64,000 bases of DNA, taken from contig NZ_JACZCQ010000004.1 of NCBI RefSeq assembly GCF_014904705.1, positions 62,001-126,000 on the forward strand, read 5' to 3'. This document shows positions 55,581 to 61,676 of this stretch, piece after piece. Position numbers and translations under genes: made by a program. The notes beneath the pieces are model-generated. The model was not told where the DNA came from. It saw nothing but the letters and a program-made list of their open reading frames with translations, and ran no database searches. The DNA is from Nisaea sediminum. GTDB lineage: Bacteria > Pseudomonadota > Alphaproteobacteria > Thalassobaculales > Thalassobaculaceae. The stretch's first letter is position 1, and each line of letters starts with the position of its first letter.

Positions 55581-56468
55581 ATGGCACAGGCGACACAACT
55601 TCCGACGCTTACTGCTGAAGGCAACCTCACCCGCTATCTGCAGGAAATCCGCAAATTTCCGATGCTGAAGCCGGAAGAGGAGTACATGCTCGCCAAGCGC
55701 TGGCGCGAGCATGACGATTCAGAAGCCGCGCACAAGCTCGTCACCAGCCATCTCCGCCTCGTGGCGAAGATCGCCATGGGATATCGCGGCTATGGTCTCC
55801 CCGTCGCCGAACTGATTTCCGAAGGCAATGTCGGCATGATGCAGGCGGTGAAGCGCTTCGATCCGGAACGCGGCTTCCGCCTCGCGACCTATGCGATGTG
55901 GTGGATCCGTGCCGCGATCCAGGAATATATCCTGCACTCATGGTCGCTGGTGAAGATCGGTACCACGGCGGCGCAGAAGAAGCTCTTCTTCAACCTGCGC
56001 AAGCTCAAGGGCCAGATGCAGGCGATCGAGGAAGGCGACCTCTCGCCCGAACGGGTGACGGCAATCGCGACGAAGCTGGAAGTTCCGGAACAGGACGTCA
56101 TCAACATGAACCGGCGCCTCTCGGCCCCGGACCATTCCCTGAATGCCCCGCTGCGAGTCGAGGGCGAAGGCGAATGGCAGGACTGGCTGGTCGACGAGAA
56201 CGAGAGCCAGGAAGAGGTTCTGGCCGAGAGCGAGGAACTGGACCAGCGGCGCAAGCTGCTCGCGGTCGGCATGGAGGCACTCAACGAACGTGAACGCCAC
56301 ATCCTGACGGAGCGTCGCCTGCTGGAAAATCCGACAACGCTCGAGGATCTGAGCCAGGAATACGGCATCAGCCGGGAACGGGTGCGGCAAATCGAGGTCC
56401 GCGCCTTCGAGAAGCTGCAGAAGGCGATGCGGAACGCCGCCATCGAACAGCGGCTCGAAACCGCCTGA
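55581..56468 (+). CDS. rpoH: RNA polymerase heat-shock sigma factor RpoH (sigma-32)
   Basis: The 295-residue sigma factor starts at ATG 55581, with GAAGGGG upstream; a frame reaching back to 55485 adds an unrelated basic segment. The regions are in order: 1.2 (NLTRYLQEIRKFPMLKPEEEY), 2.1-2.4 with AISEGNVGMMQAVKRFDP-like LISEGNVGMMQAVKRFD and YAMWWIRAAIQEYIL, the RpoH box QKKLFFNLRKLK, and 4.2 (YGISRERVRQIEVRAFEKL). It directs transcription of chaperones and proteases on heat shock. It lies 166 bases after rluD. Confidence 0.96.
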   Translation: MAQATQLPTLTAEGNLTRYLQEIRKFPMLKPEEEYMLAKRWREHDDSEAAHKLVTSHLRLVAKIAMGYRGYGLPVAELISEGNVGMMQAVKRFDPERGFRLATYAMWWIRAAIQEYILHSWSLVKIGTTAAQKKLFFNLRKLKGQMQAIEEGDLSPERVTAIATKLEVPEQDVINMNRRLSAPDHSLNAPLRVEGEGEWQDWLVDENESQEEVLAESEELDQRRKLLAVGMEALNERERHILTERRLLENPTTLEDLSQEYGISRERVRQIEVRAFEKLQKAMRNAAIEQRLETA

Positions 56469-56490: not shown

Positions 56491-56991
56491 TCAGCTTTCC
56501 TGCTTGGCGTCCCCGGCAGCCTTCGCTTCCCTCTTTTCGGAATCGTCGAGCGCCCCCGCCACGCCGGGGCCCCATTCCTCGACCAGTTCGCGCTGGCGCC
56601 GGCGTAGCCGGCCGATGCGCTGCTCGATCCGCATCGCGATGCCCATCGAGACGATCCCCGGCGCGATGAGGTAGATGCACCAGCCGAGCCCAGCCGCCCC
56701 CAGCATGGTGAGCCAGGCGAAAGGATCGGCCATGATGGCGAAGGCGCGCTCGTAGGAATGCCCCTCCGTCCAGAGCTGGGCGACGAAGGGCAACACGCCG
56801 ACGAAATTCATGCAGCCGACGCAGAGCGTGGTGTACTTCTCCCGCCGCCGGTCGATCGCCATGGCGGCGAAGGTCGGCATCATGCCGATCCCGAGCAGAA
56901 GCACGGTCGGCAGAGTGAACAGCATCAGCCCGCCGACGATCGTAATGACGATCACCTTCATCGAAGCGGCATTTGCCGAACTTGCTGCCAT
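56491..56991 (-). CDS. three-TM membrane protein of unknown function
   Basis: A 166-residue protein from ATG 56991, with GGGACGGG just upstream (ATG 57012 adds seven residues). Three hydrophobic segments (about 12-45, 56-78 and 90-125) are followed by a charged tail, RIGRLRRRQRELVEEWG and KREAKAAGDAKQES, probably in the cytoplasm. A pair of cysteines in TLCVGCMNF could bind metal. I recognise no family. It lies 60 bases downstream of the pseudokinase gene in the same direction and may be its partner. Confidence 0.78.
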   Translation of the reverse strand: MAASSANAASMKVIVITIVGGLMLFTLPTVLLLGIGMMPTFAAMAIDRRREKYTTLCVGCMNFVGVLPFVAQLWTEGHSYERAFAIMADPFAWLTMLGAAGLGWCIYLIAPGIVSMGIAMRIEQRIGRLRRRQRELVEEWGPGVAGALDDSEKREAKAAGDAKQES

Positions 56992-57054
56992 CGCCCGTCC
57001 CGATACATCCAAATGCCGGCGGAAACCTCCGCCGCGAACATCCGATCCGCGAGT

Positions 57055-59055
57055 TTATACCAAATAAAGGATTACGATAGCGGTGGTTCCAACGCTGCCG
57101 ACCACGCCCGAGACCACGGCGGCGGCCTGCTCGCCGACTTCCGCCGCCAGACTGTCCTTGTTCTGCAGATCCAGATTCATCTGCGCGATCTGGACAGCGC
57201 ACTGGGCGAATTCCTGCTGCGCGCGCTGGTATCCCTGCTGATCCCGCTGCTGCGCGCGCTGATCGTCGAATATCTTCAGAATTTCCCCGAGCTGCCCCGA
57301 ATCCGACGCCTTCATCACACTGTTCTCGACCGCCGCCCGGGCCTTCAGATTGTGAAAGGCATTGACCGCGGGCTTCATCAGCTCGACGAACCAGTGGCTC
57401 AGTCCCGGCATCGGACCGTTGCGCGAGAGCGTCTGGATCCGCGCGAGCAGGCGCAACACATTGAGCGCATCGATGGCAGGACGGGTGTCGGAGGAATTGC
57501 CGAGCGGCCGCAGCAGACGGTCGTCGATATCGGGGGACCTGGCGCCGAGGAAAGCCGCGAGATGGCGATCCATCGGGATCGGCGGCCGCCGGCCTTGCTG
57601 CGCCACGGCCTCCAGAGCCGGGATCACCTCTTCCGGGTCCGTCACATAGAGATGCTCGATCATCGAGCTCATGCAGTGGATGTCTTCGTTCAGCTCGTAG
57701 AGCACCCGCTCGATCCCGTATCCGGGGCCGGTGCTGTTGAGCAGGGTCGGCAGCTTGTCGAACTTGGAGAACAGTCCGAGCAAGTCCTGTTTCGACCGGG
57801 TCTGCACCGACATCCAGGGGCCGACGGAGCGGCTGCCGATGAAGGCCGCGACCTTCTGCCGGGTGGCGTCATCGTTGAAATTGAGTGCCAGCGTCGGGCC
57901 GACCCCGTCGATATGGGTCGAAAACCCCTTGTGCCGCATCGGCGCGGCCGGATCGAGGCCGATCGCGACCCGCGTGATCAGGCGCGCATCCTCTTCCTTC
58001 GGCGCGCTCTGGATGCCGTTCGCCCCGCCGGTCACCTTGTTGACCGCCTCGACGACATTCTCGTTGCCAAGCGAGCGTCGCAGCCAGTTGTCGAAATCCT
58101 GTCCCCGGACCAGTTCCGCGGCCGTGTTCCAGTTCCGCCCGATCGCATGGGCGACCGATCGGACGTTCTCGTAGGAACCGCCGCCGACCATCAGCGGGCG
58201 GGCAGCTTTCTGCGGCAGCTTGACCTGCTTCGGCGTCAGCCGGCGCCCACCGAGCCAGAGTTCGACATCGCGGATGGTCCAGCGCTCGCGCGGCTCGTCG
58301 GTCAGGAGACCGCGCAGCAGCTCGACCATGTTCATCTGCAGCCGGGTGCCGCCGACGAGACAGGCGTAGGACCCGAGATTGATCCGGTCGAAGATCGCGC
58401 GCTGCGGATCCGGATCCTCCGGCAGCATCCTGCCGGTCACGAGACTGAGCACGGTTGCGCCGACCGAGAAGAGATCGTCGAGCACGCTGCCGTCGCCCCG
58501 CGCAGTGCGGTCCGCCATCGCGTTTTCGAGACTCTCGTACTTGTCCGGCTGGAAGAGCCCGGCGGGGCAGCTGATGCATTCTCCAAGCATCACGGAGCGG
58601 CGGTTGGGGTCACTGTAGAACAGATTATCCGGACGAATGTTCCGGTGGGTCACGCCGCGCTGGGACATTTCGCGCAGACTGGCGACAAGCGGTGTCAGGA
58701 ACCCGCGGGTCAGTTGCTCGTCCGTAAAAGGCTCGATCGTGTCGTCCTCGGACTTGAAGACCCGCCCGCCGCGCGGCCGGTCCACGACCAGAACCGGCAT
58801 CCTCCGGCCGGTGAGGGTCCAGTTGACGACGCCATGGTCCTGGACGCGCATCAGGCTGTGGTTCGGAAAGCCCTTCAGTGCGTTGATCGCCTCGACCCTG
58901 AGCGGATATTTCGGTTCGCAGACCAGAGCCACGAAATCGGCCTTGTTGTTGCCGTCACGGCAAGCATAAGCCTTCGCCGTCGGCGAATCGAAATCGGGCA
59001 AGGGCTGACCGGGGTCGATATCGAACCGGTCGTTGACTGAGACCACATCCGCCAT
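57055..59055 (-). CDS. tail-anchored protein kinase-like protein, probable pseudokinase
   Basis: The 666-residue protein has an N-terminal kinase-like domain (about 10-285), a long helical region, a Gln-rich coiled coil (about 605-640) and one membrane helix at the very C-terminus (VSGVVGSVGTTAIVILYLV). The catalytic loop is H137-R-N-I-R-P-D-N144 instead of HRDxKxxN, so the catalytic Asp is Asn. The beta-3 Lys is absent (FVALVCEP), no glycine loop is seen, and the DFG position reads LGE. These changes indicate a pseudokinase facing the cytoplasm. Its target is unknown. Confidence 0.85.
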   Translation of the reverse strand: MADVVSVNDRFDIDPGQPLPDFDSPTAKAYACRDGNNKADFVALVCEPKYPLRVEAINALKGFPNHSLMRVQDHGVVNWTLTGRRMPVLVVDRPRGGRVFKSEDDTIEPFTDEQLTRGFLTPLVASLREMSQRGVTHRNIRPDNLFYSDPNRRSVMLGECISCPAGLFQPDKYESLENAMADRTARGDGSVLDDLFSVGATVLSLVTGRMLPEDPDPQRAIFDRINLGSYACLVGGTRLQMNMVELLRGLLTDEPRERWTIRDVELWLGGRRLTPKQVKLPQKAARPLMVGGGSYENVRSVAHAIGRNWNTAAELVRGQDFDNWLRRSLGNENVVEAVNKVTGGANGIQSAPKEEDARLITRVAIGLDPAAPMRHKGFSTHIDGVGPTLALNFNDDATRQKVAAFIGSRSVGPWMSVQTRSKQDLLGLFSKFDKLPTLLNSTGPGYGIERVLYELNEDIHCMSSMIEHLYVTDPEEVIPALEAVAQQGRRPPIPMDRHLAAFLGARSPDIDDRLLRPLGNSSDTRPAIDALNVLRLLARIQTLSRNGPMPGLSHWFVELMKPAVNAFHNLKARAAVENSVMKASDSGQLGEILKIFDDQRAQQRDQQGYQRAQQEFAQCAVQIAQMNLDLQNKDSLAAEVGEQAAAVVSGVVGSVGTTAIVILYLV

Positions 59056-59173: not shown

Positions 59174-60466
59174 TCAACCGCGGAACGGGTCATGCACCAG
59201 AATGGTGTCCTCGCGCTCCGGGCTGGTCGACAGCAGGGCCACCGGCGTCTCGATCAGCTCCTCGAGATAACGGATATATTTCACCGCGTTGGCCGGAAGA
59301 TCCGCCCACGAACGGGCGCCGAACGTACTTTCGGACCAACCCTCGACGGTCTCGTAGATCGGCGTCACGGCGGCCTGCGGCCCGGCGCCTGCCGGGAAAT
59401 AGTCCATCCGTTCGCCCTTCAGCTCGTAGCCGACGCAGATCTTCAGCTCGTCGAACCCGTCCAGCACGTCGAGCTTGGTGAGAGCGATGCCGTCGACGCC
59501 GGATACTTTCAGCGCCTGGCGGACCATCACCGCGTCGAACCAGCCGCAGCGCCGCTTGCGTCCGGTGACGGTGCCGAACTCGCGCCCGCGCTCGCCGAGC
59601 CGCTGACCATTCTCGTCGTTGAGTTCCGTCGGAAACGGACCGGAGCCGACGCGCGTGGTGTAGGCCTTCACCAGGCCAAGCACGTAGCCGACATCCCGCG
59701 GGCCGAGGCCGGAGCCCGCCGCGGCCTGACCGGCGACGGTGTTGGAAGAGGTGACGAACGGATAGGTGCCGTGGTCGACATCGAGCATCACGCCCTGCGC
59801 GCCCTCGAAGAGGATCCGCTTGTCGTTCGCCGCCGCTGCCTGAAGCTCGCGCCAGACCGGACGCACGAACGGCAGCACCGTCTGCGAGATCTCGGCAAGC
59901 TGGACCAGCGTCTCCTCCGGATCGACGAGATCCTCGCCGGCGCCCTTCAGGAAGATGTTGTGATGCGCGATCAGTTCGCGCACCCGGACAGCGAGGCAAT
60001 CCGGATCGGCGAGATCGGATACCTTCACTGCACGACGGGCGACCTTGTCCTCATAGGCCGGGCCGATGCCGCGGCCGGTGGTGCCGATCTTGCCCTCGCC
60101 CTTTACCGCTTCGCGGGCCTGGTCGATCCGGCGGTGTACCGGCAGGATGAGCGAGGCGTTGTCCGCGATCACGAGGCTGTCGGTGGAGATCTTCACGCCG
60201 GCCTTGCCGAGAGTCTCGATCTCGCTCGCCAGCGCCCAGGGATCGATCACGACGCCGTTGCCGATCACCGAGAGTTTACCTTCGCGCACCACACCTGACG
60301 GCAGCAGACTCAGCTTGTAGGTCTGATTGCCGATGACGAGCGTATGGCCCGCATTGTGTCCGCCCTGGAAGCGCACGATCACATCCGCGCGCTCCGAGAG
60401 CCAGTCGACGATCTTCCCCTTGCCTTCGTCGCCCCACTGGGCGCCGATCACGGTGACGTTTCTCAT
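59174..60466 (-). CDS. purA: adenylosuccinate synthetase PurA
   Basis: PurA makes adenylosuccinate from IMP, aspartate and GTP, the first step to AMP. The 430-residue protein starts with the GTP-binding loop [17 protein letters not shown] and [12 protein letters not shown], then shows [37 protein letters not shown] and [11 protein letters not shown]. It is 50 bases downstream of hisZ in the same direction, an arrangement seen in several alphaproteobacteria. Confidence 0.98.
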
Positions 60467-60515: not shown

Positions 60516-61676
60516 TCAGAGCGCGACCGGCGCTCCGTTCTTCAGCAGATGGGTACAGCCGAGGCGCGACGCTTCTAGCGCCGGATCGCCTTCCTTGTCC
60601 AATCCTGCAATGGTGATCCAGCCGTCGGTGCGCAGTTTGCGTGCTGTCTCCGGGGAGGTACCGAACGGCAGGTAGAGCCTTTCCGGGCGCGTGGGTTCCG
60701 GCAGCGCGCGCATCACGGATTCCATGTAGAGCGTGAAGCCGGCCGAACGCAGCCCCTCGCCGCCATCCACCCGGTAGCGGCCGCCGCGTCCGAGCTCGCC
60801 GCGTACGCCGCGCGAGAACAGACTGAAGCCGTAGCCGGTGTAATATTCGAAACCGCGGTTCTCCACCGGATCGATCGTCATCGCGAGATCCGGCTCGACT
60901 GCCGCCACGCTCTCGGCAATCGCGCCAACCCGCTCGATCGCCGCCCGGGCGGCGTCCGGGAGCCTGACATTCTTCAGATCGCCCAACGCCTCGCGCCAGG
61001 AATCGGTGGCATCCATCAGCTGCTTCAGGACGGGGGCCAGCGGCCCGGCAAGGCGGCTGACTTCAGCCGAGTGCTTGCGGTCGATCGCGGTGCGCAGCGC
61101 GCGCAGGGTATCGTCCGGAAGGTCCGCCTCCTCAAGCAATACCGGGATCACCCGGGGCGCCGTCAGGTCGACCGAAAGGTTCCCGACGCCGATGGCACGC
61201 AGTGCTTCGACGGCCAGCAGGATCGGCTCCACATCCGCGGCGACACTGTCGCCGCCGAGCAGTTCGGCGCCGACCTGGACCAGCTCGCGCTCCGGATTAA
61301 GCTGGTTGGCGGAGACCCGCAGGACCTCGCCCGCGTAGCAGAGGCGGAGCGGACGCGGCTCGTCGCGCAGCCGGGTGGTGGCGATGCGGGCGATCTGCAC
61401 CGTCATGTCGGCGCGCACCCCCATCATCTTCTGCGAGACGGGGTCCATCAGGCGGAAAGTGCTGTTGCTCATCGCCGCGCCCGGTCCCGCGAACAGCGAG
61501 GTCTCGAACTCGACCAGCGGCGGCTTCACGAGGTCGTAGCCATGCGCGGCACACTCGGCGAGCAGGGCCCGGATCACCTCCGCCTCATGCGCCGCATCAA
61601 GCGGCAGCACGTCGCGCAATCCCGCGGGCAGCAGGGCGCGTCTGGTCAGTTCGCTCTCACTGTCTGGATGCGACAC
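60516..61676 (-). CDS. hisZ: ATP phosphoribosyltransferase regulatory subunit HisZ
   Basis: HisZ is a catalytically inactive paralogue of histidyl-tRNA synthetase that activates the short form of HisG in histidine synthesis. The 386-residue product has the class II synthetase core: [19 protein letters not shown] at the start, [24 protein letters not shown] as motif 2, and [13 protein letters not shown]. It lacks the C-terminal anticodon-binding domain expected of HisS. It precedes purA in the same operon. Confidence 0.94.

Follow-up and report, generated by a model that had tools for sequence, protein, structure and literature searches.

The locus lies in a window of 64,000 nucleotides of Nisaea sediminum (the whole stretch of DNA that was analysed), and contains two adjacent genes of the minus strand. 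The first gene (57055..59055, minus strand) encodes a putatively tail-anchored kinase-like protein of 666 residues, here called K, which was recognized by its open reading frame, its kinase homology, and its relatives throughout the class. The second gene (56491..56991, minus strand) lies 63 bp downstream and encodes a three-TM protein of 166 residues with a charged C-terminal tail, here called T, recognized by its open reading frame, its relatives, and its hydropathy. The initial annotation placed the pseudokinase at 56491-57055, an interval that spans T and the end of the K stop codon; it was right about the shared strand of the two genes, and gave their distance as 60 bp. Comparison with relatives suggests that the T start is more likely the ATG at 56991 than the upstream TTG of the open reading frame list, because the relatives start there. 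The commonest neighbour upstream of K, purA (59174..60466, minus strand; Pfam), is preceded by hisZ (60516-61676, minus strand), a match to the histidyl-tRNA synthetase family. A sigma factor gene of the RpoH type (55590..56468, plus strand; Pfam sigma-70 domains) and a gene for a pseudouridine synthase (referred to as rluD; Pfam) are downstream and convergent. The name rpoH was borrowed from the RefSeq annotation at the equivalent place in Azospirillum thermophilum, and the name hisZ from that in Azospirillum, where the gene at this place is labelled ATP phosphoribosyltransferase regulatory subunit. A promoter and terminator scan gave signals at chance level only.

The kinase-fold domain of K (residues ~8-275; 58231..59034, minus strand, edges approximate) lacks the Gly-rich loop and the β3 Lys. 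The K of the window matches PF00069 with 21.4 bits (E 1.8e-4), which is under the Pfam cut-off of 31.7 bits. PF00069 similarity at E<=0.1 extends to all 19 K members from the window's family (best E 1.8e-9), and several K copies from other families exceed the curated cut-off. A class-wide profile of 80 K relatives searched against the PDB matched the BRSK2 kinase (E 5.8e-15) and PknB (E 1.4e-12), and an hhalign comparison with ten kinase sequences of the same class gave 9.4e-21. The overall kinase domain is therefore kept in K on PF00069, class-profile, and hhalign similarity, as had been proposed. Models of K and T, each folded from nine sequences, were of low confidence (mean pLDDT 44.6 and 60.6, respectively), too poor for judging the pocket or an interface. 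A Foldseek search with this K model gave kinase matches, the strongest at E 3.3e-5; among the matches listed, TM-scores relative to query length were 0.16-0.19, and the search is weakly suggestive of a kinase fold. At E<=0.001, no PF00069 match was found in the window's own genome; K was missed as well, so other degenerate kinases may escape this search. Four further genomes of the genus were searched, and three of them contain kinases above the PF00069 cut-off.

Two proteins from another class of the phylum (L219 and L220; genomes G643 and G658) match the K profile at E 6.7e-19 and 1.3e-17. Both have intact HRD and DFG motifs, and in both the kinase domain is followed by a related helical repeat region, although the likeness to K stops near profile position 420. 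They probably represent a catalytic sister lineage. The kinase ancestry of K is indicated by this comparison, since two kinases with intact motifs share the related helical region. The first part of the K C-terminal domain aligns to the helical repeats of these sister kinases, and K therefore probably descends from kinases of that layout.

Catalytic residues were counted over 144 distinct K copies, to which the window's own family contributed 15; the set excludes duplicates and any copy that covered fewer than 450 positions of the profile. Hits outside this set include those in G037, G309, G156, G123, G376, G055, G117, G366, G378, and G256, and K matches beyond those listed in the class search plus eight named loci likewise fall outside it. 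In the window, K reads HRN at residues 137-139 and LVC at the β3 position (residues 44-46), so that the initial reading of HRN in place of HRD and of a missing β3 Lys holds; the DFG site reads LGEC. The degenerate catalytic loop HRNIRPDN (residues 137-144; 58624..58647, minus strand) has lost the HRD Asp and kept the Asn. The HRD Asp is missing in 143/144 copies (one of these a gap), and the position is occupied by Ala in 69, Gly in 19, Asn in 18, Ser in 18, Glu in 3, and Asp in 1, the last of which reads HGD. Homologues with an intact HRD thus do not dominate the family. Lys is absent from residues 44-46 in 143/144 copies as well, and the lone Lys copy differs from the HGD copy. The HRD Asp and β3 Lys by which active Hanks-type kinases are recognized are each found in only one of the 144. 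Where the Gly-rich loop would be expected, K has a conserved PLPxxDxPxAxAY segment instead.

The metal-binding Asn144 of the catalytic loop is kept in 136/144 copies. Residue 159 (58579..58581, minus strand; Glu in the window) is Glu in 74 and Asp in 55 copies, that is, acidic in 129/144, and 124 copies have both Asn144 and this acid. HMMER aligned NLFFAD..RIMLGDFG of L220 to NLFYSD..SVMLGEC of K, which places the DFG Asp on residue 159; hhalign comparison with other kinases places it on Leu157 instead. The alignment to residue 159 is judged the more reliable of the two, as the letters on either side match with no gap needed. By this alignment an acid is probably retained at the DFG-Asp position, while Gly at residue 161 occurs in 0/144 copies. 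The statement that K has no DFG is thus literally correct, and understates the site. Since the Asn and the acid are both kept, the metal site of K may survive.

The C-terminal region of K (residues ~276-635; 57151..58230, minus strand, edges approximate) is a conserved domain of its own, which the initial annotation had not recognized, and contains the conserved motifs ERxLYxLN, HCxS, and DRHxAAF. The near-invariant residues are Tyr453 (144 of 144 copies), Cys461 (143), Asp605 (142), Asp496 (140), Ser463 (139), His498 (136), Arg450 (136), and Glu449 (135). A search of this region for Pfam families found none, and a Pfam search of 19 K members from the window's family found no domain besides the kinase in more than one member. 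The domain is followed by a predicted C-terminal membrane anchor (residues ~641-666; 57058..57135, minus strand). Hydropathy fits the anchor that was first proposed: the protein is hydrophobic from about residue 643, and its best 19-mer scores 2.06, versus 1.32 for the top internal window. Within the last 45 residues, the best 19-mer reaches at least 1.4 in 141/144 copies and at least 1.6 in 134; random internal stretches of equal length reach 1.4 in 9/144. The tail is more hydrophobic than the best internal window in 138/144 copies. One of the three tails under 1.4 is truncated by a contig end, and the other two score 1.38 and 1.39. Tail-anchored proteins combine a single hydrophobic segment at the extreme C-terminus with a cytosolic N-terminal part, and hydropathy suggests that K may have this layout.

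T has three hydrophobic stretches (residues ~11-40, 53-75, and 90-122), which are followed by a charged tail, and hydropathy thus bears out its description as a three-TM protein. The T of the window matched no Pfam family. A weak NCBIfam match was rejected as pointing to unrelated membrane families, as were weak Pfam matches of T relatives to 11 families, none of which was found in more than 3/18 members. One genome (G049) carries three extra T-like genes (L258, L259, and L260) without K nearby, one of them after a hybrid histidine kinase gene; another genome of the same genus (G181) has four T matches and one K. Inspection by eye of the genes around extra or relocated T copies (L258-L262) revealed nothing recurrent.

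The nearest named relative of K is 98% identical and comes from the metagenome-assembled genome Nisaea sp. HXMU1428-11. K was found at E<=1e-20 in 131/385 sampled alphaproteobacterial genomes, about a third. In a sample of 398 genomes from the phylum, 18 had a match at E<=1e-15; 16 belong to the class of the window, and the remaining two matches are L219 and L220, whose motifs are intact. Since only these two lie outside the class, this sample suggests a K family confined to Alphaproteobacteria. No relative turned up in a scan of IMG/VR. Both genes are under purifying selection: within Nisaea, comparison with four relatives gave K a dN/dS of 0.03-0.09, and comparison with two gave T 0.10-0.14. 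The kinase lobe has higher values than the C-terminal domain, 0.12-0.17 versus 0.05-0.07 in the three more distant of the four pairs, and 0.04 versus 0.016 in the closest pair. A role as a defence system was considered and rejected; PADLOC models match the kinase domain only (MkoA, E 1.5e-7), and the locus lies amid housekeeping genes.

T was found in 131/385 of the same genomes (E<=1e-4). Both genes are present in 129 genomes, K only in 2, T only in 2, and neither in 252; Fisher's test of this co-occurrence ignores shared ancestry. Three of the four discordant genomes are drafts of 75-84% completeness (K only in G207; T only in G067 and G081). The fourth, G366, has K only and is listed as 100% complete, which makes it an exception at the thresholds used. 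K occurs in 28/36 genomes of the window's family, and T is directly downstream in 28/28; in one of them K is split over two contigs, with T on the second. Over the class, T lies downstream of K in 133/141 copies with readable flanks (3 of the 144 are at a contig edge), and these 133 copies are mostly from families other than that of the window. The eight copies without adjacent T consist of four in genomes with T elsewhere and four second copies beside an intact pair (L136, L145, L146, and L147; genomes G131, G169, G269, and G350). The genomes in which K and T are apart and both kept are clear in two cases (G336 and G252) and involve short contigs in two others (G205 and G066). Two loci (L085 and L130; genomes G387 and G167) contain tandem K-T-K-T arrays, with T on both sides of a K copy. 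The listed positions in G310 also give the order K-T-K-T. The sequence distances of K and T are correlated over 68 loci, each with one K, one T, and purA (r 0.75), and the correlation persists in a partial Mantel test that removes purA (r 0.65, p 0.001). The linkage elsewhere and the partnership that had been suggested are thus both upheld, the latter well supported by the genomic evidence of co-occurrence, linkage, and distance correlation; physical association of the two proteins would be in keeping with it. Since K is almost always found together with T, both are probably parts of one membrane machine.

K was compared with the seven bacterial pseudokinase families in the accessible part of a 2025 review (PMC12599244), and it fits none of those for which a defining feature could be compared. 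The GLW family is the closest in layout. GLW replaces HRD in that family, whereas K mostly has HR(A/N/S/G), and GLW occurs at residues 137-139 in 0/144 copies; the β3 motif is LLLL/W in GLW and ALV in K. No partner protein is named for GLW in the available text, whereas K has T. The DLHK family is the closest in the catalytic loop, and shares with K an HRxxRP-like loop, an Arg replacing the catalytic-loop Lys, and a degenerate β3. DLHK is described as keeping the HRD Asp and having no transmembrane region; K is the reverse on both points. CP1, linked to a COG3899 domain, is likewise described as having no transmembrane region, unlike K with its hydrophobic tail. The published classification separates ActPs1, ActPs2, ActPs3, and DYD by residue patterns of each family; the review's statements of taxon and motif assign ActPs1, ActPs2, and ActPs3 to actinobacteria and DYD to firmicutes. 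K may stand under another name in the 42-family bacterial kinase classification that the review cites. MviN/ActPs3 resembles K in the linkage of a pseudokinase domain to the membrane, and differs in being primarily actinobacterial with completely lost motifs, again according to the accessible descriptions. T is a separate small protein, in contrast to the fusion in MviN/ActPs3. The pseudokinase of MviN/ActPs3 is fused to a large multi-span protein. EssB/YukC of type VII secretion, also named in the review, is alike in outline as a membrane-tethered dead kinase within a membrane complex. K ends at its hydrophobic tail with no domain after it, unlike EssB/YukC. In the EssB/YukC proteins, a further domain follows the transmembrane segment and lies across the membrane from the pseudokinase.

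Sequence and genomic analyses suggest that K and T form one inner-membrane module of the Alphaproteobacteria, in which K is a non-catalytic, membrane-tethered regulator or scaffold that works with T; we give this reading a probability of about 0.6. K is probably derived from a bacterial Ser/Thr kinase whose C-terminal region was helical. The catalytic Asp, the β3 Lys, and the Gly-rich loop are gone, and K ends in a hydrophobic anchor. Because these catalytic residues are lost, K most likely does not perform the usual phosphate transfer. The tail might insert into the membrane and hold K at its cytosolic face, where K would bind T. The pseudokinase lobe, with its Asn and the probable acid at the DFG position, may be a surface for ligand sensing or docking. 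The conserved C-terminal domain may be an output or interaction surface, and T might position the complex in the membrane or relay a signal across it. The four second K copies with no T beside them, the three surplus T genes in each of two genomes, and the K-only genome G366 count against this reading.

With the Asn and the acid retained, an unusual catalytic activity is conceivable. K could be an atypical active transferase, in which these two residues bind a metal-nucleotide and the reaction proceeds without the HRD Asp. Their joint conservation fits this idea, as does that of Arg141 (120/144 copies) and Arg53 (135/144), and precedent exists in SelO, SidJ, and POMK, which were first called pseudokinases and are credited with such activity or ATP binding in the accessible part of the review (PMC12599244). 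The absent Gly-rich loop and β3 Lys and the lack of Gly at residue 161 argue against it, as does the weaker constraint on the kinase lobe than on the C-terminal domain within Nisaea, and we consider it unlikely. That same difference in constraint would be expected if the C-terminal domain, as a new enzyme or binding domain, were the main working part and the kinase lobe a degenerate support. The near-invariant polar residues, from Tyr453 to Glu449, point in the same direction, and so does the Pfam search, in which the kinase domain alone was matched in more than one of 19 members. Across the class, however, the mean information of the kinase C-lobe is 2.00 bits versus 2.02 bits for block 441-510, and 20 positions conserved in at least 90% of copies lie before residue 276 versus 15 after it. 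The part that aligns to the sister-kinase helical repeats would fit a scaffold as well. A dominant C-terminal domain is therefore rather improbable, more so than an atypical transferase.

The gene neighbourhood bears on whether K and T are partners at all. Among 119 loci, 74 have purA and 63 have hisZ upstream, 62 have a convergent rpoH, and 58 have rluD; all four neighbours are present in 42/119 loci and none in 30/119, partly owing to contig ends. This pattern suggests that the genes were inherited at an ancestral site and in some cases moved later. Since purA and rpoH are such frequent neighbours, linkage of K and T by descent is plausible, and the two genes might have no more in common than an inherited position between purA and rpoH. 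Yet T is beside K in 22 of the 30 loci without the four usual neighbours, and in 16 of these 22 the sequence extends for 2 kb or more to either side of K. The two genes are also kept after separation and are missing together, and their distance correlation survives the purA correction, which leaves a merely shared position very improbable. Decay of K as a gene is hardly credible: an internal TAA occurs in one relative from the family (L010, genome G029), against which stand dN/dS values well below 1 and long open copies throughout the class. This TAA might reflect an assembly error or decay.

The preferred reading of K and T as an inner-membrane module could be extended to a bolder and rather doubtful proposal, in which the pair is an ancestral two-protein membrane switch of the Alphaproteobacteria. 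A kinase without phosphotransfer, but with a metal-nucleotide site, would sense an internal ligand. By way of T and of its new C-terminal domain, which has a conserved Glu-Arg-Tyr-Cys-Ser and Asp-His site, it would control a membrane process common to about a third of the class.

Literature searches, whose reach left out most subscription papers, found no paper on the K-T pair. In RefSeq, two K copies from Azospirillum are labelled 'serine/threonine protein kinase', and the gene after each is labelled hypothetical. Both copies read HGA for HRD, and the genes that follow them match the T profile (E 5e-45 and 9e-48). Should the pair be real, it would be a widely conserved membrane module, unstudied as far as the literature searches show, and the seven bacterial pseudokinase families in the accessible part of the review (PMC12599244) would gain an alphaproteobacterial one. 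The pair occurs in cultured species of Azospirillum, Nisaea, and Thalassobaculum, in which it would be directly testable. The interest of K and T lies in the breadth of their conservation and in their testability in Azospirillum.
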